DNA of 37,759 nt from NCBI GenBank assembly GCA_026646335.1, contig JAPKFY010000055.1, positions 1 through 37,759 of the forward strand, in the 5' to 3' direction. Numbering within the stretch: position 1 is the stretch's first letter; the number at the start of each line of letters is the position of its first letter. Of the stretch, positions 3,531 to 22,092 are shown in pieces. A model generated the notes under the pieces. It had not been told where the DNA came from, ran no database searches, and worked only from the letters and a program-made list of their open reading frames with translations. The position numbers were made by a program, and so were the translations under genes. Source of the stretch: Aequorivita sp. GTDB lineage: Bacteria; Bacteroidota; Bacteroidia; Flavobacteriales; Flavobacteriaceae.

Positions 3531-3586
3531 GAACGCTTAACCGGTTAAAAAAAATCATTTAAACCCTGGAGTAGCGCAATAAAAGA

Positions 3587-3619
3587 ATTCAGAATTCAGA
3601 ATTCATAATTCAGAATTGA
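3587..3619. repeat. AATTCAGA-type simple repeat
   Basis: The rpmI-rplT spacer contains GAATTCAGAATTCAGAATTC followed by ATAATTCAGAATTG, about four degenerate copies of an 8-base AT-rich unit. A similar run, TGAATTATGAATTATGAAT, lies at 12417-12435. These low-complexity tracts look like replication-slippage products and are not linked to any gene function. Confidence 0.6.
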
Positions 3620-4107: not shown

Positions 4108-5055
4108 ATGCTTCGTTCCGTATTTCTACTTTTCACAATGCTTTTTGTTTCGGAAGGTTTTCTTTTCGCACAAAAAGGAACAGGAAAACTATACAGGATT
4201 GACAGATATGAATCCATCTATCTTCCCTTGGGAAAGATTTCCTTTGCCGATACACTAATCGAATATAAAGTTGGATCGCCCCCGCCTATTCAAAAATATA
4301 GGGATAGCGTGCAATGTCTTCACGAACCAAACTACAAGAATTACCAAACCCCAAATTTTCTTTCGTTGGGTTGTGGTGGAAGTTTAACCGTAGAATTTAC
4401 AGACAATGGTTTTATGAACCTGCCGGGCGATGACCTCTATCTTTTTGAAGTCGGGCCCTCCAAAGAACCGGCTAAAGTAGAAATTTCACAGAATGGCATT
4501 GATTGGATTTATGCCGGTAAAATAGCTGGAGGAAAGTCATCTTTAGATTTAACCAAAGAAGGAATTGACGACGAAACTGTATTCTATTTTCTTAGAATAA
4601 CCGACTTAAAAGACCTCTGCAAAAGTAAAAGTGCAGGAGCAGATATCGATGCCATTGGAGCCATCAATAGTGTTATAAAACTCACTATAAACGCTGACGT
4701 TTTGTTTGATGTAGCCAAATATGAATTAAAAGAAAATGCCAAACAAGGTCTTGACTCTTTGTGGAAAACTATCCAGAAAGTAAATAAAGCTACAATTTTA
4801 GTAGAAGGTCATACAGATAGTGAAGGTGATGAAGCTTCAAATATGACACTTTCGGAAAACCGATGTATTTCAGTAAAGGATAGATTGATTGAAATTTTTG
4901 GCGAAAACCCTCTATACGAATTTGAAATAAAACCTTACGGTGAAAGCAAACCGCGTGTTCCAAACGATACTGAAGATAACAAACAACGAAACAGGAGGGT
5001 TGAAATTACCGTTTTACCGCCAAAGGATTATTACGAAAGCCTATCCAGGGATTAG
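4108..5055 (+). CDS. exported OmpA-family peptidoglycan-binding protein
   Basis: A 315-aa protein with a signal peptide (MLRSVFLLFTMLFVSEGFLFAQ, cleavage probably after the Gln-containing AQ near 22). The middle region (about 30-190) is of unknown fold. The C-terminal OmpA domain (about 195-300) shows VLFDVAKYELKENAK, LVEGHTDSEGDEASN, LSENRCISVKDRL, PYGESKPRVPNDTEDN and QRNRRVEITV, including the Asp and Arg positions that grip diaminopimelate in peptidoglycan. It probably tethers the outer membrane or a periplasmic complex to the wall. An upstream TATCTTCG (4086-4093) is a possible weak -7 box. It is a single gene between a terminator and a convergent gene. The specific role is unknown. Confidence 0.85.
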   Translation: MLRSVFLLFTMLFVSEGFLFAQKGTGKLYRIDRYESIYLPLGKISFADTLIEYKVGSPPPIQKYRDSVQCLHEPNYKNYQTPNFLSLGCGGSLTVEFTDNGFMNLPGDDLYLFEVGPSKEPAKVEISQNGIDWIYAGKIAGGKSSLDLTKEGIDDETVFYFLRITDLKDLCKSKSAGADIDAIGAINSVIKLTINADVLFDVAKYELKENAKQGLDSLWKTIQKVNKATILVEGHTDSEGDEASNMTLSENRCISVKDRLIEIFGENPLYEFEIKPYGESKPRVPNDTEDNKQRNRRVEITVLPPKDYYESLSRD

Positions 5056-5075
5056 GGATTAGGGATTAGAGATTA
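5048..5075. repeat. GGGATTA heptamer tandem repeat over a stop codon
   Basis: Four tandem 7-base units (three GGGATTA and one GAGATTA) begin inside the last codons of the OmpA-family gene, so the stop TAG at 5053 is supplied by the repeat itself. A lone related copy, CAGGGATTA, ends crtYcd at 22083-22091. It is probably a slippage-prone or REP-associated tract. Confidence 0.65.
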
Positions 5076-5091
5076 GGTATGAGCCGGGGAA

Positions 5092-6537: not shown

Positions 6538-8091
6538 TTAAAACGGCACATCATTATCCTCTTCAATAGAGAAATCATTGTTCATGGAACTTCCGAAAGC
6601 TTCATTTGGCGACGGCAAATTCTTCGTTTTAAAAGTATCGTCATTTGCGGCATCGTTCATTCGGGAATGGATTTCTATTGGGGTATCAAAATTATCGAGA
6701 CTTTCAAACTTACCAAGATGACCGATAAATTTCAAGCGAATTTCATCCAAACCACCGTTACGGTGTTTCGCTACAATAAATTCTGCTTGTCCTGCTGTTG
6801 GTGTGTGTTCCTCATCATCCCATTCGTCAATTTTGTAGTATTCCGGACGATAGATAAAGGAAACAATATCGGCATCCTGCTCAATGGCTCCAGATTCACG
6901 AAGATCGGAGAGCAAAGGGCGTTTGCTGCCCCCACGGGTTTCAACAGCACGGGAAAGTTGTGAAAGTGCAATTACGGGTATATTCAGCTCTTTTGCCAAA
7001 GCTTTTAAGTTTCGCGAAATAGTTGAAATTTCCTGTTCGCGGTTCCCTCCCTTTTGGTTTCCACCGGCGGTCATCAATTGCAAATAATCAACAATTATAA
7101 GTTTGATGCCGTGTTGTGATGAAAGTCGTCGTGCCTTTGCACGAAGATCAAAAATTGATAATGAAGGACTATCATCTATAAAAAGAGGTGCCTTTTCAAG
7201 ACCTTTCACTTTTACATTCAACTGTTCCCATTCGTGTTTCTCAAGGTTCCCGGTTCGCAGTTTTTCTGAGCTTAAATGTGTTTCAGAAGAAATCAATCGC
7301 GTTATCAATTGCACGGAAGACATCTCCAAAGAGAAAAATGCAACGGGAATATTGTGTTCTACGGCAATATTCCGCGCCATGGAAAGCGTCAAGGCCGTTT
7401 TACCCATACCTGGACGGGCCGCAATAATAATCAAATCACTTGGTTGCCAGCCCGAAGTAAGCTTATCAACCTTTGCAAAACCGGAAGGAACTCCGGAAAG
7501 CCCTTCTTTATTGGCTATTTCCTCAATTCTCTTCTTTGCCTGGATTACAAGATTCTGTGCAGTTTCGGAAGAACGCTTTATGTTTCCCTGTGTTACTTCA
7601 TATAATTTCGCTTCGGCATTGTCCAAAAGGTCAAAAACATCGGTGCTTTCATTATAGGAATCCTCGATTATTTCGTTTGAAATTTTTATCAAACTCCTTT
7701 GAATATATTTCTGAAGAATGATGCGCGCGTGGAACTCGATATGTGCCGAAGAGGACACTTTTTGGGTCAATTGAATCAAATAAAACTCACCTCCCACAAG
7801 CTCCAATTTTCCCTGTTGCTTGAGTTTCGTGGAAACGGTTAATAAGTCCACTGGTTGGCTGTCTTCAAACAGATTATGTATGGCCTCAAAAATGTATTGA
7901 TGTGCCTGTTTGTAAAAAACCTCAGAATGTAGTATATCTATTACCTCATCAACCCCTTTTTTGTCAATCATCAAAGCTCCTAGCACAACTTCTTCTAAAT
8001 CAAGTGCTTGAGGGGGTATTTTTCCCTTTTCAAGTGATATAACTTGAGCAGAGCGAGGTGAAAAACTGGTATGAGGTTTAATTTTTTCCAT
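6538..8091 (-). CDS. dnaB: replicative DNA helicase DnaB
   Basis: Hexameric 5'-3' helicase of the replication fork. The 517-aa protein has the N-terminal primase-interacting domain (about 25-130), a linker helix, and a RecA-like C-domain with Walker A ARPGMGKT (225-232), the FFSLEMS block, Walker B LIIVDYLQL (331-339), LSQLSRAVETR and DLRESGAIEQDAD. It is longer than E. coli DnaB because of a C-terminal tail after about 465 that is acidic, poorly structured and ends IEEDNDVPF, very like the SSB acidic tip. A possible TACATTCG -7 box lies at 8103-8096, very close to the start, implying a short or absent leader. Confidence 0.97.
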   Translation of the reverse strand: MEKIKPHTSFSPRSAQVISLEKGKIPPQALDLEEVVLGALMIDKKGVDEVIDILHSEVFYKQAHQYIFEAIHNLFEDSQPVDLLTVSTKLKQQGKLELVGGEFYLIQLTQKVSSSAHIEFHARIILQKYIQRSLIKISNEIIEDSYNESTDVFDLLDNAEAKLYEVTQGNIKRSSETAQNLVIQAKKRIEEIANKEGLSGVPSGFAKVDKLTSGWQPSDLIIIAARPGMGKTALTLSMARNIAVEHNIPVAFFSLEMSSVQLITRLISSETHLSSEKLRTGNLEKHEWEQLNVKVKGLEKAPLFIDDSPSLSIFDLRAKARRLSSQHGIKLIIVDYLQLMTAGGNQKGGNREQEISTISRNLKALAKELNIPVIALSQLSRAVETRGGSKRPLLSDLRESGAIEQDADIVSFIYRPEYYKIDEWDDEEHTPTAGQAEFIVAKHRNGGLDEIRLKFIGHLGKFESLDNFDTPIEIHSRMNDAANDDTFKTKNLPSPNEAFGSSMNNDFSIEEDNDVPF

Positions 8092-10167: not shown

Positions 10168-11233
10168 TTCTTAAAAGATAGATTGCCAATAAACCGAACA
10201 CAAAATTAGGAAACCAAGTTGCTATAAAGGGAGAAAAGGAACTCTGTTCTGCCATGGTCCCGAAAATTTTATCGAAAAAGATAAAAACCATTCCTATGCT
10301 TATGCCAATGGCAAGGTTAACACCCATTCCGCCACGCCTTTTTACAGATGAAACCGCTACGGCAATAATGGTTAGAATATAGGCCGAAACAGGCAAACTC
10401 CAACGTTTGTAACGAACCACCTCGTACCGATTGATGTATGATGAACCACGTGCCTTTTCCTTTTTTATAAACTCGTTAAGCTCTGTAAAATTGAGCGTTT
10501 CCGCAATGTAGGTTACTGGGGTCAAATCTTCCATAGAAAAAGCAAAAACAGTATCCAGTTTGTTCTTGGTTTCCAGAATATCTCCCATTTCACCTATTTT
10601 TCGTTTGCTATAACTGAACAGCGTATAAGTGCTGTCCTTGTCATTATATTTTATTTGTGCCGCGCTAATTTTATAGGTCATTTTGTTGCCGTCAAAATGT
10701 TCCAAAGTGAAGTTGCTTCCTATCTTTTCTTTCACATTAAAATAGCTCACATAGATATAATCGTTGTCATTTATCTGTGTGTACACATTGCTTTGGTCCC
10801 TATCCTGTTTTCCCTTCTTTAGATAATCATAAGAAAACTCATTAAAACCCTTACTGGCTTTTGGCGCCAAATACATACTGAAAACCAATGCTGCAATACA
10901 AACAAGAGTCGCACCAATAAGATATGGTCGCAAAAAACGATAATATGAAACCCCACTACTTAAAAAAGCTATTACCTCGGTATTATTGGCCAATTTTGAA
11001 GTGAACCAAATAACCGAAAGAAAAAGAAACAACGGAAAAAGTAAGTTTGCGAAATAGATTGTGAAATTATAGAGATAGATCATTACCTCTGTAAAAGGCA
11101 CTTCATTGTCTAGAATTTTATCGATTTTTTCGGCGAGGTGAACGGTAATTCCAATTGGTATGAACAGTAACAACAGGAGCGAAAAAGTGCCCAAATATTT
11201 TTTAAGTATGTATCTGTCCAGTATGCTGAGCAT
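10154..11233 (-). CDS. lptG: LptF/LptG-family LPS export permease
   Basis: Inner-membrane permease of the Lpt machine that extracts lipopolysaccharide and passes it across the periplasm. The 359-aa protein has the family layout: three N-terminal helices (ILDRYILKKYLGTFSLLLLL, a second near 55-80, a third near 100-125), a periplasmic beta-jellyroll domain (about 135-265), then three C-terminal helices ending FVFGLLAIYLLRNAKR. It could be LptF rather than LptG; the N-terminal LDRYILKKYL favours the YjgP/YjgQ family without deciding. It starts 2 bases after tgt, so the two are translated as one unit. Confidence 0.9.
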   Translation of the reverse strand: MLSILDRYILKKYLGTFSLLLLLFIPIGITVHLAEKIDKILDNEVPFTEVMIYLYNFTIYFANLLFPLFLFLSVIWFTSKLANNTEVIAFLSSGVSYYRFLRPYLIGATLVCIAALVFSMYLAPKASKGFNEFSYDYLKKGKQDRDQSNVYTQINDNDYIYVSYFNVKEKIGSNFTLEHFDGNKMTYKISAAQIKYNDKDSTYTLFSYSKRKIGEMGDILETKNKLDTVFAFSMEDLTPVTYIAETLNFTELNEFIKKEKARGSSYINRYEVVRYKRWSLPVSAYILTIIAVAVSSVKRRGGMGVNLAIGISIGMVFIFFDKIFGTMAEQSSFSPFIATWFPNFVFGLLAIYLLRNAKR

Positions 11234-11235
11234 CG

Positions 11236-12366
11236 TTACAATCTTTGATCTAGTTTTTTGACCATGCTATTTTTCCATTGCGCAAAATCACCCGCTAAGA
11301 TATGTTTTCTCGCCTCGCGAACCAACCATAAGTAAAAACCAAGGTTGTGGATGGTGGCAATCTGCCTTCCCAGCATTTCATTAACGGTAAACAAATGCCG
11401 AAGATAGGCCTTGTTATAGTCTGTATCTACCCAAGTAATACCCATTGGATCAATTACGGAAAGATCTGCTTCCCATTTTTTGTTTTTGATATTGATAATG
11501 CCTTCGGAAGTGAAAAGCATTCCATTCCGCCCATTTCTCGTTGGCATAACACAGTCGAACATATCAATTCCAAGTGCAATATTTTCCAAAATATTCACTG
11601 GTGTCCCCACCCCCATTAAATAGCGCGGTTTTTCCTTCGGAAGAATATCTGTTACTATTGCTGTCATTTCGTACATTTCATCAGCTGGTTCGCCAACAGA
11701 AAGTCCGCCAATGGCATTGCCTTCCGCGCCAACCGAAGCAATATATTCAGCAGATTGCTTTCTTAAATCTTTATAGGTACTTCCTTGCACGATAGGGAAA
11801 AAGCTTTGGCCGTAATCATACTTTAAAGGCGTTTTCTCCAAATGTTTTATGCAGCGGTCCAGCCAGCGATGCGTCATGTGCATCGAGCGTTTTGCATAGT
11901 TATATTCGCAAGGATAAGGCGCACATTCATCAAAAGCCATAATGATATCGGCGCCAATGATGCGTTGTATTTCCATCACATTTTCAGGGGTGAAAACATG
12001 GTAACTTCCATCAATATGGCTTTTAAATTTTACCCCTTCCTCTTTGATCTTCCTGTTTGCAGAAAGCGAATACACTTGGTAGCCACCGCTATCAGTCAAA
12101 ATATTGCGGTCCCAATTCATAAATTTATGAAGGCCGCCTGCTTTTTCAAGAACTGGCATTTGCGGCCTCAAGTATAAATGATAAGTATTCCCAAGAATGA
12201 CGTCTGGATTAATGTCTTCTTTCAACTCCCGCTGATGTACTCCTTTTACGGTGCCAACGGTGCCAACGGGCATAAAAATTGGAGTTTCAATCACTCCATG
12301 GTCTGTGGTTATGGTGCCAGCGCGGGCGCTGCTTTGTAAATCTGTGGCTTCTAATTTAAAGTGCAT
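11236..12366 (-). CDS. tgt: queuine/preQ1 tRNA-guanine transglycosylase
   Basis: Exchanges guanine 34 of GUN-anticodon tRNAs for preQ1 on the way to queuosine. The 376-aa protein has PVGTVGTVKG, the catalytic-Asp motif LTDSGGYQVYSL, the substrate-loop GGLSVGE, and nucleophile motif MFDCVMPTRNGRNG. The C-terminal zinc site is altered: the usual Cys-x-Cys-x2-Cys before AYLRHL is replaced by GITWVDT, while the partner His in TIHNLGFY remains. First gene of tgt-lptG-eamA. Confidence 0.95.
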   Translation of the reverse strand: MHFKLEATDLQSSARAGTITTDHGVIETPIFMPVGTVGTVKGVHQRELKEDINPDVILGNTYHLYLRPQMPVLEKAGGLHKFMNWDRNILTDSGGYQVYSLSANRKIKEEGVKFKSHIDGSYHVFTPENVMEIQRIIGADIIMAFDECAPYPCEYNYAKRSMHMTHRWLDRCIKHLEKTPLKYDYGQSFFPIVQGSTYKDLRKQSAEYIASVGAEGNAIGGLSVGEPADEMYEMTAIVTDILPKEKPRYLMGVGTPVNILENIALGIDMFDCVMPTRNGRNGMLFTSEGIINIKNKKWEADLSVIDPMGITWVDTDYNKAYLRHLFTVNEMLGRQIATIHNLGFYLWLVREARKHILAGDFAQWKNSMVKKLDQRL

Positions 12367-13449: not shown

Positions 13450-14403
13450 ATGAAAAAATACACAGATACAGGAAAAAAAGATACACGTTCAGGTTTTGGT
13501 GACGGATTGACGGAACTTGGAAAGAAAAATAAAGATGTTGTGGCGCTTTGCGCAGATCTTACCGGTTCGTTAAAGATGGACGAATTTAAGGAAAACCATC
13601 CGGAGCGTTTCTTTCAAATAGGAATTGCCGAAGCTAATATGATAGGCATTGCTGCGGGAATGACCATTGGCGGAAAAATTCCTTTTACAGGAACTTTTGC
13701 AAATTTTTCCACAGGAAGGGTTTACGATCAAATCCGTCAAAGCGTTGCCTATAGCGGAAAAAATGTAAAAATATGTGCGTCACATGCTGGTATTACTTTA
13801 GGAGAAGATGGCGCCACACACCAAATTTTGGAAGACATTGGGTTAATGAAGATGCTTCCAGGAATGACCGTGATCAATACTTGTGACTACAACCAGACCA
13901 AAGCAGCGACCATTGCCATTGCAGATTACGAAGGCCCCGTCTATCTTCGTTTTGGGAGGCCGAAAGTTGCAAACTTCACCCCAGCAGACCAAAATTTCCA
14001 AATAGGAAAAGCAGTTCAATTGCAGGAAGGAACTGACGTTACTATAATTGCCACAGGTCATTTGGTTTGGGAAGCTTTGCAAGCTGCAGAAACTTTAAAT
14101 GAAAACGGAATTACCTCAGACGTTATAAACATACACACCATAAAACCTCTGGACGATGAAGCAATTCTGAAAAGCGTTAAAAAGACTGGCTGTGTTGTAA
14201 CAGCTGAAGAACATAATTTCCTTGGTGGTCTAGGCGAAAGTGTGGCGCGTGTATTATCTACGCATCATCCTGCTCCACAAGAATTCATTGCCACACAAGA
14301 CACTTTTGGTGAGTCTGGAACTCCAGAACAACTGATGGATAAATACGGCTTGAACGCTTCCGCAATTGTAAATGCGGTTAAAAAAGTTATTGCCCGAAAG
14401 TAG
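13450..14403 (+). CDS. transketolase C-terminal subunit
   Basis: Second half of the split transketolase, with the pyrimidine-binding domain (SGFGDGLTELGKKN, CADLTGS, FQIGIAEANMIGIAAGM, FANFSTGRVYDQIRQSVAY, SHAGITLGEDGATHQ) and the C-terminal transketolase domain (IHTIKPLDDEAILK, EEHNFLGGLGESVA, DTFGESGTPEQLMDKYGL). The Glu of GIAEAN is the family's cofactor-activating acid. I choose ATG at 13450 (317 aa, MKKYTDTGKKDTRSGFG) over an in-frame TTG at 13435. A terminator follows. Confidence 0.95.
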   Translation: MKKYTDTGKKDTRSGFGDGLTELGKKNKDVVALCADLTGSLKMDEFKENHPERFFQIGIAEANMIGIAAGMTIGGKIPFTGTFANFSTGRVYDQIRQSVAYSGKNVKICASHAGITLGEDGATHQILEDIGLMKMLPGMTVINTCDYNQTKAATIAIADYEGPVYLRFGRPKVANFTPADQNFQIGKAVQLQEGTDVTIIATGHLVWEALQAAETLNENGITSDVINIHTIKPLDDEAILKSVKKTGCVVTAEEHNFLGGLGESVARVLSTHHPAPQEFIATQDTFGESGTPEQLMDKYGLNASAIVNAVKKVIARK

Positions 14404-17468: not shown

Positions 17469-18368
17469 GTGGTCAAAACACAATTTGGCATTAAGGATCT
17501 CGAAAATCTTTCAAACGTTAAAGCCCATACCATCAGGATTTGGGAAAAACGATACAATCTTCTTGAACCAGACCGTACTGATACAAACATCAGAAGGTAC
17601 GACCTCGAAAACCTTAAAAAATTATTGAATATTGCCTACCTCTACAATGCTGGGCATAAAATTTCAAAAATTGCAAGCTTAAATGCAACACAAATTCAAG
17701 CGCTGATCAAAGAAAGTATAAGCGGGCTCAATTCCGAGTATATGCTCAATGTTTTTAAATCGGCAATGCTTGAGTTTGACGATGAGCTTTTTGATACTAC
17801 TCTGGAAAAAATTCTGGAAAAAAAATCGTTTAGAGAAGTTTTTGCGGAAATATTTGTGCCCTTACTCAATGAAACAGGCATCCTATGGCATTCTGGAACT
17901 ATCGATCCGGCTCATGAACATTTCATATCCGAAAAGATAAAACATACCATAATTGGACATTCAGCTAAAGTGAAAAAAAACACTTCTGAAAATGCACAAT
18001 TATTTACACTCTATCTTCCCTATCAAGAAATTCACGAAATCGGTTTGCTTTATGCTAATTATGAGCTTCTTTCGGCTGGTTTTAAAACAATATTCTTAGG
18101 CGCAAATATTCCTATGGAAAGCTTGAAACACTTACTCAAAACCAAAACAAAAGTTATTTTTGTAACTTATTTCACAGTGCTTCCAGAAAACGACAACCTT
18201 GAAAAATACCTTCATGATTTTCATAATGAGGTGTGTGCCAATGGTCCAAGTGAACTTTGGGTATTGGGTAGCAAAGCTGCCAAGAATATCAAAAACACAA
18301 AAAGCGCAAAGCTTTTCAGAGACCTCAAACAATTTACGAACCACATCGAAAATCTTTCAATTATTTGA
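17469..18368 (+). CDS. CarH/LitR-like B12-binding MerR transcriptional regulator
   Basis: A 299-aa three-domain protein. A MerR helix-turn-helix (about 6-75: FGIKDLENLSNVKAHTIRIW, EKRYNLLEPDRTDTNIRRYD) is followed by a helical cobalamin-capping domain and a Rossmann-fold B12-binding domain. The CarH signature W-H-x8-E-H is present (Trp140, His141, Glu150, His151), and ExHxxG (187-192) supplies the lower axial His189. In Thermus CarH these residues bind adenosylcobalamin in the dark and form the bis-His photoproduct. By analogy it represses the downstream carotenoid genes in darkness; that is inference. The start is GTG at 17469, since no ATG fits before the upstream stop at 17433. It sits directly upstream of crtI, same strand. 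Confidence 0.88.
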   Translation: MVKTQFGIKDLENLSNVKAHTIRIWEKRYNLLEPDRTDTNIRRYDLENLKKLLNIAYLYNAGHKISKIASLNATQIQALIKESISGLNSEYMLNVFKSAMLEFDDELFDTTLEKILEKKSFREVFAEIFVPLLNETGILWHSGTIDPAHEHFISEKIKHTIIGHSAKVKKNTSENAQLFTLYLPYQEIHEIGLLYANYELLSAGFKTIFLGANIPMESLKHLLKTKTKVIFVTYFTVLPENDNLEKYLHDFHNEVCANGPSELWVLGSKAAKNIKNTKSAKLFRDLKQFTNHIENLSII

Positions 18369-18488: not shown

Positions 18489-20030
18489 ATGAAAAAAATT
18501 GCAGTTATTGGTTCTGGTTTTTCGTCCCTCGCCGCTTCGTGTTATCTAGCGCAATCGGGAAATGCCGTTACCATTTACGAAAAAAATCAAAGCATTGGTG
18601 GACGAGCTCGTCAATTTAAAAAAGATGGCTTTACATTTGATATGGGCCCAACGTGGTATTGGATGCCCGGCATTGGTGGACGAGCTCGTCAATTTAAAAA
18701 AGATGGCTTTACATTTGATATGGGCCCAACGTGGTATTGGATGCCCGATGTTTTTGAACGGTTTTTTACAGATTTTGGAAAAGTTCCCACTGACTTTTAT
18801 GAACTGGAAAAATTAAATCCTGCTTACCGTGTATATTTTGGGATTGACGATTATATATCAATTGAAGATACGCTTGAAAAAATAAGCGCTGCCTTTGAAA
18901 AAGAAGAACCTGGAAGTTCAATAAAACTGCGGAAATTTATGGCCCAAGCTTTGGACAATTATAATATTGCCATTAAAGATTTGGTTTATAGGCCAGGCAT
19001 TTCGCCTTTGGAACTGGTTACCGTTACAACTATTAGCAAAATAAGCCAATTTTTCAGTACCATCAGTAAAGAGGTGCGCAGCGAATTTAAAAACCCTAAG
19101 CTTATTTCAATTTTGGAATTTCCTGTTTTGTTTTTGGGTGCAAAACCATCCAAAACACCTGCCTTTTACAGTTTTATGAACTACGCAGATTTTGGACTAG
19201 GAACATTTCACCCAAAAAAAGGTATGTATTCCGTAATTGAAGGAATGAAAACTCTTGCCGAAGAACTTGGCGTGAACATACTGACCAATCAAAACGTTGA
19301 AAAAATCAGTGTTGAAAAAGGAAAGGCGTCCGCAATTATTGTGGATGGTGAAAAAATAAATGCCGATGTAATTCTGAGTGGCGCAGATTATCACCACACA
19401 GAAACACTTTTGGATGTAAAATTTAGACAGTATTCTGAAAATTATTGGCAAAAGAAAACTTTTGCTCCTTCTGCCCTACTTTTTTATGTTGCATTTGACA
19501 AAAAAATTCAAAACGTTGATCACCACACGCTGTTTTTTGATGTGGATTTTGAAAAACATTCCCAAGAAATATACGATGCCCCACAATGGCCAGACGAACC
19601 TCTTTTTTATGCCAGCTTTCCTTCAAAAACAGATACAAATGTTTCGCCTGAAGGTAAAGAAACAGGGATCTTCTTAATTCCATTGGCTCCCGGACTGGAC
19701 GATATTCCTGAAATACGTGAAGAATATTTTGGGAAAATAATGGATCGGTTTGAAAAAACCACCAATCAAGAGGTTAAAAAATACGTTATATTTAAAGAAT
19801 CCTTTTGCATCAATGATTTCATTTCCGATTATAATAGTTATAAAGGAAACGCTTACGGACTGGCAAACACGCTGCTACAAACGGCATTTTTAAGGCCAAA
19901 ACTGAAAAGTGGGAAAGTAAAAAATCTATTCTATACGGGACAGTTAACCGTTCCCGGTCCAGGAGTACCCCCAGCACTGATTTCTGGAAAATTAGTGGCG
20001 GGTTTAATTGAAAAAGAACAACGAAATTGA
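18489..20030 (+). CDS. crtI: phytoene desaturase with internal 26-residue duplication
   Basis: FAD-dependent CrtI-type desaturase converting phytoene to lycopene. ATG at 18489 (MKKIAVIGSGFSSLAASCYL) begins at the dinucleotide-binding beta-alpha-beta; the further upstream ATG/TTG codons lie in the promoter. The protein is 513 aa; removing one copy of an exact 26-residue tandem repeat (GIGGRARQFKK...WYWMP, two copies in residues 35-86) gives 487 aa, the usual size. The repeated segment contains the second FAD-contacting motif GGRAR and the GFTFDMGPTWYWMP block. The C-terminal motif LFYTGQLTVPGPGVPPALIS, with the last FAD contacts, is intact. The reading frame stays open, so the gene is altered, not frameshifted. 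The stop overlaps the crtB start by 3 bases. Confidence 0.95.
   Translation: MKKIAVIGSGFSSLAASCYLAQSGNAVTIYEKNQSIGGRARQFKKDGFTFDMGPTWYWMPGIGGRARQFKKDGFTFDMGPTWYWMPDVFERFFTDFGKVPTDFYELEKLNPAYRVYFGIDDYISIEDTLEKISAAFEKEEPGSSIKLRKFMAQALDNYNIAIKDLVYRPGISPLELVTVTTISKISQFFSTISKEVRSEFKNPKLISILEFPVLFLGAKPSKTPAFYSFMNYADFGLGTFHPKKGMYSVIEGMKTLAEELGVNILTNQNVEKISVEKGKASAIIVDGEKINADVILSGADYHHTETLLDVKFRQYSENYWQKKTFAPSALLFYVAFDKKIQNVDHHTLFFDVDFEKHSQEIYDAPQWPDEPLFYASFPSKTDTNVSPEGKETGIFLIPLAPGLDDIPEIREEYFGKIMDRFEKTTNQEVKKYVIFKESFCINDFISDYNSYKGNAYGLANTLLQTAFLRPKLKSGKVKNLFYTGQLTVPGPGVPPALISGKLVAGLIEKEQRN
18592..18747 (+). repeat. exact 78-bp tandem duplication inside crtI
   Basis: Copy 1 (18592-18669) and copy 2 (18670-18747) are identical at every base. 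The unit begins GCATTGGTGGACGAGCTCG and ends TATTGGATGCCCG. Its length, 3 x 26, keeps the frame. Identity implies a very recent event or an assembly artefact. Confidence 0.97.
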
Positions 20031-20869
20031 AAGAACTTTTTGACATAGTATCCGAATCTTGCAGCAAAAAGGTTACTGAAACTTACAGTACTTCCTTTTC
20101 ATTGGCCACGCGTATGTTGGGACCTTCCATTAGGCAGGATGTTTACAATATTTATGGCTTCGTGCGTTTTGCAGACGAGATTGTGGATTCTTTTCACGAT
20201 TATGAAAAGGAAATTCTTTTCAAACGTTTTGAAAATACTATGGAGGAAGCGCTACAAGACCGCATAAGCCTCAACCCTATTTTGAACTCATTTCAAAACA
20301 CAGTTTATAAATATAATATTGACAAGGAATTGATCGATTCCTTTATGGACAGCATGCGGTTGGATCTTACAAAAAGCACCTATTCCACTGCGGAAGAATT
20401 CAATAAGTATATTTACGGCTCTGCAGATGTTGTGGGGTTGATGTGTTTAAAAGTTTTCGTGAAAGGTGATGTTGAAAAATATAACTCCCTTAAAGAATCT
20501 GCGATGAATCTGGGTTCCGCTTTTCAAAAACTGAATTTTTTGCGCGATTTGAAAGAAGACCATGAAACCCTTAGCCGAACATATTTTCCAAACACAAATT
20601 TAAATTCGCTGGACGAAATTTCAAAACAAAAGATAATTGAAGAAATAACCGATAACTTCAACAAAGGTTATCAAGGAATCCTGCTTTTGCCACACGAAGC
20701 AAAACTTGGGGTTTTTATTGCATACAGGTACTACAAACGGCTCTTGAAAAAGCTTCAACAAACTCCTGCTGTAGAAATAAAAAACGCACGGATCCGAGTG
20801 CCAAATATTGAAAAAATAGGTCTTTTGACGCGGAGCTACGTGAAATATCAATTAAATTTGGTAAAATGA
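20027..20869 (+). CDS. crtB: phytoene synthase
   Basis: Joins two geranylgeranyl diphosphates head to head to give phytoene. The 280-aa squalene/phytoene synthase fold shows both Asp-rich motifs: FADEIVD (Asp50, Asp54) and NFLRDLKEDHE (Asp174, Asp178), plus YSTSFSLATRML and RTYFPN. The start is TTG at 20027, overlapping the crtI stop as TTGA, so translation is probably coupled; the N-terminus MKELFDIVSESCSKKVTETY fits family members, which supports this weak start. Third gene of the carotenoid locus. Confidence 0.95.
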   Translation: MKELFDIVSESCSKKVTETYSTSFSLATRMLGPSIRQDVYNIYGFVRFADEIVDSFHDYEKEILFKRFENTMEEALQDRISLNPILNSFQNTVYKYNIDKELIDSFMDSMRLDLTKSTYSTAEEFNKYIYGSADVVGLMCLKVFVKGDVEKYNSLKESAMNLGSAFQKLNFLRDLKEDHETLSRTYFPNTNLNSLDEISKQKIIEEITDNFNKGYQGILLLPHEAKLGVFIAYRYYKRLLKKLQQTPAVEIKNARIRVPNIEKIGLLTRSYVKYQLNLVK

Positions 20870-20934: not shown

Positions 20935-21384
20935 ATGACAACAGTGCTTTGGATATTGATTTTCATAACCACTTTCTTCATTATGGAATTTATGGCGTGG
21001 TTTACCCATAAATACGTTATGCACGGTTTTCTGTGGAAACTCCACAAAGACCATCACCTTAAAGACCACGGCAGTTGGTGGGAACGAAACGATTACTTTT
21101 TTCTTTTTTATGCGTTGGTGAGCATTAGTTGTTTTGTGGGTTGGAGCTATTTTGGCTTTTGGGCCGGACTGCCCATCGGCTTGGGGATTTTCGCTTACGG
21201 ACTGGCCTATTTTTTTGTGCATGACATTTTTATCCATCAGCGTTTCAAAATGTTCAGAAATGCCAATAATTGGTATGCACGGGGAATCAGAAGAGCGCAT
21301 AAAATTCACCATAAACACTTGGGGAAAGAAAAAGGCGAATGTTTCGGGATGCTTTTTCCACCTTTTAAATATTTCAAAAAATAG
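20935..21384 (+). CDS. crtZ: beta-carotene 3-hydroxylase
   Basis: Di-iron membrane hydroxylase that adds 3- and 3'-hydroxyls to beta-carotene to give zeaxanthin. The 149-aa protein has about four hydrophobic helices and all histidine clusters: HKYVMH (25-30), HKDHH (37-41), HDIFIHQR (96-103) and HKIHHKH (122-128). Length is typical of bacterial CrtZ. The 65-base spacer after crtB carries a small imperfect direct repeat (TCCCGAATCAACG / TCCCGAATTAACG). The crtYcd ATG follows 3 bases after its stop. Confidence 0.95.
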   Translation: MTTVLWILIFITTFFIMEFMAWFTHKYVMHGFLWKLHKDHHLKDHGSWWERNDYFFLFYALVSISCFVGWSYFGFWAGLPIGLGIFAYGLAYFFVHDIFIHQRFKMFRNANNWYARGIRRAHKIHHKHLGKEKGECFGMLFPPFKYFKK

Positions 21385-21387
21385 GCT

Positions 21388-22092
21388 ATGTGGCATCTGT
21401 ATCTTTTGTTGGACATAGCTTCGTTCAGCATTCCATTTCTTTTCAGCTTTCATCCAAAACTGAAGTTTTATAAGCTGTGGAAATATTTCTTCCCTGCCAC
21501 ATTTATAATGATGGCTTTTTTTGTTTCATGGGACATCATATTCACGCAGCAAGGTTTCTGGGGCTTTAACGAGAAATATCTTTCAGGAATAAAACTGACA
21601 AACCTTCCTTTGGAAGAATGGCTCTTCTTTATCTGCATTCCATATGCCTGTCTTTTCACGATTTATGCTTTTAGAAATTTGCTCCCCAAGTTTTCTTTTT
21701 CAAACGAAACTACCGCTGTTGTTTATTTTTCACTGCAAACAATATTAATCGCCACCTTGCTTTATTTTTACGATCGGTGGTACACGGCAATCAATTTTGG
21801 TTATGCAATTGTGCTAATGGCTTTAGTTTTTAATTATAAACGTGAAGCACTAAACGTTTTCTTCCCTGTTTTTTTAATTCTTTTGATTCCCTTTTTTATC
21901 GTGAACGGATTTCTCACAGGCAGCTGGATACACGAACAAGTGGTTTGGTACAACGATTCTGAAAACCTCGGAATCAGAATAGGAACTGTACCTGTTGAAG
22001 ACAGTATTTATGCGTTAAGTATGCTTCTTACTGTTTATGTTTTAATGGAAAAATTCAAAGAAAAATATCCTTCAAAAAGCACCAGGGATTAA
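21388..22092 (+). CDS. crtYcd: lycopene cyclase, fused heterodimer type
   Basis: Membrane lycopene cyclase making beta-carotene. The 234-aa protein has about seven transmembrane helices and two tandem cyclase repeats, each with the family P-x-E-E/D motif: NLPLEEWLFFICIPYACLF near residue 72 and GTVPVEDSIYALSMLL near 205. This is the CrtYc+CrtYd fusion type found in Bacteroidota, unrelated to FAD-dependent CrtY or CrtL. It ends the apparent crtI-crtB-crtZ-crtYcd operon. It completes a route to zeaxanthin; no ketolase or glycosyltransferase is present here. Confidence 0.92.
   Translation: MWHLYLLLDIASFSIPFLFSFHPKLKFYKLWKYFFPATFIMMAFFVSWDIIFTQQGFWGFNEKYLSGIKLTNLPLEEWLFFICIPYACLFTIYAFRNLLPKFSFSNETTAVVYFSLQTILIATLLYFYDRWYTAINFGYAIVLMALVFNYKREALNVFFPVFLILLIPFFIVNGFLTGSWIHEQVVWYNDSENLGIRIGTVPVEDSIYALSMLLTVYVLMEKFKEKYPSKSTRD

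Follow-up and report, generated by a model that had tools for sequence, protein, structure and literature searches.

Two identical copies of a 78-bp segment stand side by side in the crtI gene of Aequorivita sp. The question raised by this locus is whether the doubling belongs to the organism or to its assembly. The window, meaning the whole stretch of DNA that was analysed, is the entire contig C115 (37,759 bp) of a 3.05 Mb genome in 163 contigs. The two copies are base-identical and in frame. Tandem Repeats Finder gave a period of 78, 2.0 copies and 100% matches. The array length is exactly 156 bp and the microhomology at its ends is 0. A perfect tandem repeat of this length lies far outside what chance would be expected to produce. 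An exact in-frame tandem duplication in crtI had been described in the first-pass annotation and this was confirmed, both copies being identical and the ORF intact. The annotation had also placed the GGRAR block, which we take to be an FAD contact of CrtI, within the doubled segment, and GGRARQFKKDGFTFDMGPTWYWMP was located there.

The crtI ORF starts with ATG at 18489, stops at 20028-20030 and encodes 513 aa; removal of one copy leaves 487 aa. By family profile it is a CrtI-type phytoene desaturase. It passed the cut-offs of NCBIfam NF058655 CrtID (760 bits against 640, in two stretches of which the better covers residues 62-504) and TIGR02734 (406 bits against 238.1). Identity to the seven nearest relatives in the alignment was 82-88%. 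The closest named relatives were mostly Aequorivita. No second crtI copy was found in the genome at E 0.001, the sole other match, on C65, being an oxidoreductase-like stretch with 24% identity. The surrounding features are listed below. The 149-aa ORF had no Pfam or NCBIfam match at E 0.001 and is presumably crtZ, a name taken from the usual position of that gene in the cluster. The upstream regulator scored 73 bits on the CarH profile, far short of the cut-off of 400.

Features of the window (contig C115) and exact tandem duplications on other contigs of the same genome
Feature	Position	Strand	Remarks
CarH-like regulator, MerR-type and B12-binding cap domain	17469-18368		GTG start; directly upstream of crtI
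crtI-type phytoene desaturase ORF	18489..20030	+	513 aa deposited, 487 aa single-copy; NF058655, TIGR02734
First 78-bp copy	18592..18669	+	would be the end of the left contig at a seam
Second 78-bp copy	18670..18747	+	would be the start of the right contig at a seam; same 78 genomic bases
Proposed false join of contigs of 18,669 and 19,090 bp	18669..18670	.	length slot
crtB-type phytoene synthase ORF	20027..20869	+	open throughout; PF00494 SQS_PSY, E 3.5e-43
149-aa ORF in carotene hydroxylase (crtZ) position	20935..21384	+	context
CarR-type lycopene cyclase ORF	21388..22092	+	open throughout; PF18916, TIGR03462
Exact 43-bp tandem duplication	L145 (C33) 7889-7975		transglutaminase-type gene split
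Exact 53-bp tandem duplication	L150 (C38) 7229-7334		ABC-2 permease gene split
Exact 84-bp tandem duplication	L172 (C163) 13773-13942		between ORFs

CrtI was compared with its relatives in single-copy and two-copy form. The single-copy form scored better by 15-18 bits, and the two-copy form cost 26 extra gap positions, in 80/80 relative loci and 27/27 congeneric genomes. These loci are the best 80 of 574 confirmed and may overlap in species with the 27 congeners, one of which (G005) has a homologue only 46% identical. The comparison with related crtI genes, named as a check in the first-pass annotation, gave one copy in 107/107 relatives examined (80 loci and 27 congeneric genomes) and two copies in 0/107. 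The same annotation held that removal of one copy restores the family length, and the 487-aa form does fit the relatives better. Among the genomes compared the second copy is present in this assembly alone. The duplication as a lineage trait was ruled out, as 0/107 relatives carry it.

The structure of the 513-aa protein was predicted with AlphaFold2. The mean pLDDT was 74.6 and the pTM 0.77, with residues 38-66 below 50. The single-copy relative L005, modelled with its sequence unchanged and with nearly the same alignment, had a pLDDT of 81.4 and a pTM of 0.85, and its block means within residues 31-60 were 79, 87 and 66. Both models were poor in a C-terminal stretch. A model of the 513-aa protein had been put forward as a check at the outset, and it was weak at residues 38-66, where that of L005 was better. 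According to these predictions two copies would probably disturb the FAD domain; the models are silent on whether the copies exist.

A disturbed FAD domain is one ground for reading the repeat as a phase-variable switch, in which a copy is gained or lost by slippage or recombination and the desaturase, and with it the carotenoid pigment, is toggled. Loss of one copy from a 78-bp direct repeat is possible in principle. Tandem-repeat copy number is reportedly phase-variable in another bacterium, going by the title of PMC12817950. Among the literature matches listed, none was recognised on crtI copy number, on this genome or on tandem duplication in crtI. Against a switch, copy number was invariant among the relatives examined and there is no microhomology from which the duplication could be re-formed from the single-copy state. 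Evidence from the rest of the genome also bears on it.

The genome was scanned for similar units. Four exact two-copy tandem units of at least 30 bp (43, 53, 78 and 84 bp) were found in the 1,152,255 bases examined, which comprise 81 sequences, some of them partial, from 76 of 163 contigs, or 38% of the genome (1.15 of 3.05 Mb). Exact repeats with units below 30 bp, and units that are themselves short repeats (e.g. L134, L147), were dropped from this genome and the controls alike, as was a low-complexity array in C35 from the duplication count. In the window, the 7-bp units AGAATTC and AGGGATT form short arrays at 3584-3617 and 5047-5077. Microhomology was 0 bp for the 78-bp unit, 1 bp for the 43-bp unit, 0 bp for the 53-bp unit and 2 bp for the 84-bp unit. 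Slippage between short direct repeats usually leaves some microhomology. An origin by slippage is unlikely, values of 0, 0, 1 and 2 bp being about what chance would give by our estimate.

Two of the sister duplications break genes. The 43- and 53-bp units each cut the host gene into two overlapping reading frames. Long matches were present in 5 of the 27 congeners for the 43-bp locus and in 7 for the 53-bp locus, and all of these were short of exactly 43 and 53 bp, respectively. Both halves of the transglutaminase-type gene, and likewise of the ABC-2 permease gene, lay in one open frame in 5/5 relatives examined for each. The duplications in C33 and C38 are likely further seams of the assembly. 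The duplicating process looks like one that ignores the reading frame, in which case a unit length divisible by three, such as 78, has a one-in-three chance. Frame-blind sisters speak against the pigment switch, which we regard as scarcely credible. The first-pass annotation had suggested that slippage might switch cells between a pigmented and an unpigmented state; this is not supported, in view of 0/107 relatives, the lack of microhomology, the frame-breaking sisters and the over-long contigs described below.

A 114-bp duplication of 99.1% identity is also present at L180 (C80) 7140-7367, in a spacer beside what appears by eye to be a tRNA gene. It was considered as a fifth case and excluded from the count, as it has mismatches and lies between ORFs.

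Control DNA was scanned in the same way. Exact two-copy units numbered 0 in 1,200,000 bases of five congeners plus 847,584 bases in the loci of 109 relatives, sets which partly overlap (L111 and L112 cover genes of L092 and L084, and some congener stretches may cover genus loci). Three control loci (L233, L238 and L040) had exact arrays with roughly three or more copies, which were kept separate from the two-copy class. If rates were equal, all four duplications would land in the bases of this genome with a probability of about 0.017 by our arithmetic, the controls overlapping as stated. Taken alone, the excess over control DNA is modest evidence. Approximate tandem repeats (at least 75%), which occurred in this genome and the controls, were left out of the comparison. 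Imperfect tandem duplications in the congeners reached 97.7% identity.

The contigs were then considered by number and length. Contigs become shorter as their numbers run from C73 to C163 and then from C1 onward, a starting point and wrap that were chosen after the lengths had been seen. This order is kept by 89/116 contigs of known length and broken by 27/116, all of which are too long. The over-long contigs fit joining or extension after the contigs had been ranked. C33, C38, C115 and C163, which carry the four duplications, are all within the 27. Duplications were found in 4/20 over-long contigs examined against 0/56 others (Fisher P 0.004). The window was picked for its duplication; when it is left out the counts are still 3/19 over-long against 0/56 others. 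When weighted by bases examined, the chance that all four lie in over-long contigs is 0.03 as against 0.004. No counted exact duplication of at least 30 bp was found in the other 16 over-long contigs examined (12 of them partly). The first-pass annotation had warned of a possible assembly error, and the placing of all four exact duplications in over-long contigs is in keeping with it.

If a duplication marks a seam, a cut there is expected to release a piece as long as the rank of the contig requires. The left piece of C33 (7,931 bp) is inside its slot of 7,849-7,975, and the left piece of C38 (7,281 bp) is inside its slot of 7,174-7,503. The right piece of C115 (19,090 bp) is 5 bp under the slot of 19,095-19,760 set by C116 and C114, so that some trimming of the tip must be assumed; with both copies counted the piece is 19,168 bp and inside the slot. 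The pieces of C163 (13,856 and 5,789 bp) are outside the slot of 11,174-11,322 and are not fitted by a two-piece join. Strictly, then, 2/4 fit their slots; a tolerance of 5 bp adds the window and makes 3/4. When the cuts were placed at random in 200,000 simulations, this tolerance gave 3/4 or more fits in a fraction of 1.3e-4. Tip trimming in C115 and a contig of three pieces in C163 are possible accounts of the misfits. A three-piece join of C163 predicts a seam near L172:2535-2683, and was not upheld, as no exact unit of at least 9 bp was found besides the 84-bp one. When the slots of 17 over-long contigs (C163 included) were searched for exact duplications of at least 9 bp, C124 had two and C130 had one, three in all. 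This compares with about one expected on our rough estimate and is not significant.

Overlaps between contig tips were also present in this assembly. Among 169 contig ends four pairs had exact tip-to-tip overlaps of at least 14 bp, with lengths of 140, 140, 38 and 29 bp. Merging the 29-bp pair gave 173/173 open codons, while abutting gave at most 157/183, so that the two contigs appear to adjoin in the genome, with a short stretch in common at their tips. In the 38-bp pair the longest frame was 131 whether merged or abutted. One 140-bp pair gave 154 when merged against 133 when abutted and the other says little. Overlapping tips placed end to end give exact tandem units of the kind seen in crtI. 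The two 140-bp overlaps suggest a k-mer size near 140, in which case real repeats of 43-84 bp should not break contigs. Overlaps of this length would fit IDBA-UD run with a largest k of 140, should that have been the assembler. Positions 1-146 of the window are 99% identical to C60:1-146, a common contig tip that is probably a repeat boundary.

The duplication in crtI is very probably an assembly artefact at a contig seam, the natural gene being an ordinary crtI. On this view, short-read assembly would have ended with two adjacent contigs sharing 78 bp at their tips, an overlap shorter than the k-mer. When contigs were later joined or scaffolded, the two would have been set end to end with the overlap kept, and the same 78 bases would have been written twice. 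The natural gene would be a single-copy crtI of 487 aa and no switch would exist. We infer the join step from the duplication, its absence in relatives, its sisters, the over-long contigs and the tip overlaps. A seam of constant length set by one k-mer size was ruled out by units of 43, 53, 78 and 84 bp. After the N-terminal nucleotide-binding motif, the deposited CrtI has two GGRAR-type blocks and each relative counted has one (109 matches, some being one gene twice). As a seam would explain the two blocks, they do not change the assignment of the gene to crtI. The identity of the copies had been held to imply a recent event; it is better read as the product of an unmerged overlap.

A real in-frame duplication of 78 bp, very recent and fixed or common in the population without any role in switching, would also give copies that are exact and in frame. 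Short tandem duplications arise in bacteria, and the 99.1% identical 114-bp duplication here and those of up to 97.7% in congeners indicate that tandem duplication as such occurs in the genus. Outside the repeat crtI is open, as are the crt ORFs downstream. A real duplication would probably harm CrtI and later be lost. It would require at least four independent exact events in 38% of the genome, two of them gene-breaking and all in over-long contigs, and with k near 140 a real repeat would leave a seam at this place unexplained. This origin is considered very unlikely. Exact duplications with no microhomology should also result if, in place of a contig join, a read was chimeric, the library introduced an artefact or a minority variant was picked in error. 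As the placement in over-long contigs and the length fits would then go unexplained, a source of this kind is held to be extremely unlikely.

The seam reading has consequences for the use of such assemblies. Errors of this kind make perfect repeats that resemble recent evolution or a genetic switch, and caution is needed. At least two more genes of this assembly seem to have been split by such an error. Seams can be flagged where no reads are at hand by comparing contig rank with length and by looking for tip overlaps and frame-blind sister duplications. A real and reversible duplication would have been an unexpected way of switching carotenoid pigments in a marine flavobacterium.

The gene of the window is the same gene as the Flavobacteriaceae CrtI/CrtID (NF058655), and its deposited version differs only by the 26 doubled residues. 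An excerpt of PMC7111523 describes scaffolding despite overlap of the flanks as an error in IDBA-UD and CLC assemblies which leaves duplicate sequence, and states that the overlaps in IDBA-UD equal n, the largest k-mer. The likeness to the present case is that pieces would have been joined despite an overlap and that overlaps of length n occur, here 140 twice. In the error as described in that excerpt Ns lie between the copies, whereas in crtI one copy follows directly on the other, and the bases examined in this genome contained no N. Homotype false duplications in genome assemblies are put down, in an excerpt of PMC9516828, mainly to read errors that leave under-collapsed sequence. These would be alike in that copies made by assembly are mistaken for biology, and differ in that they concern vertebrate assemblies and are attributed there mainly to read errors.
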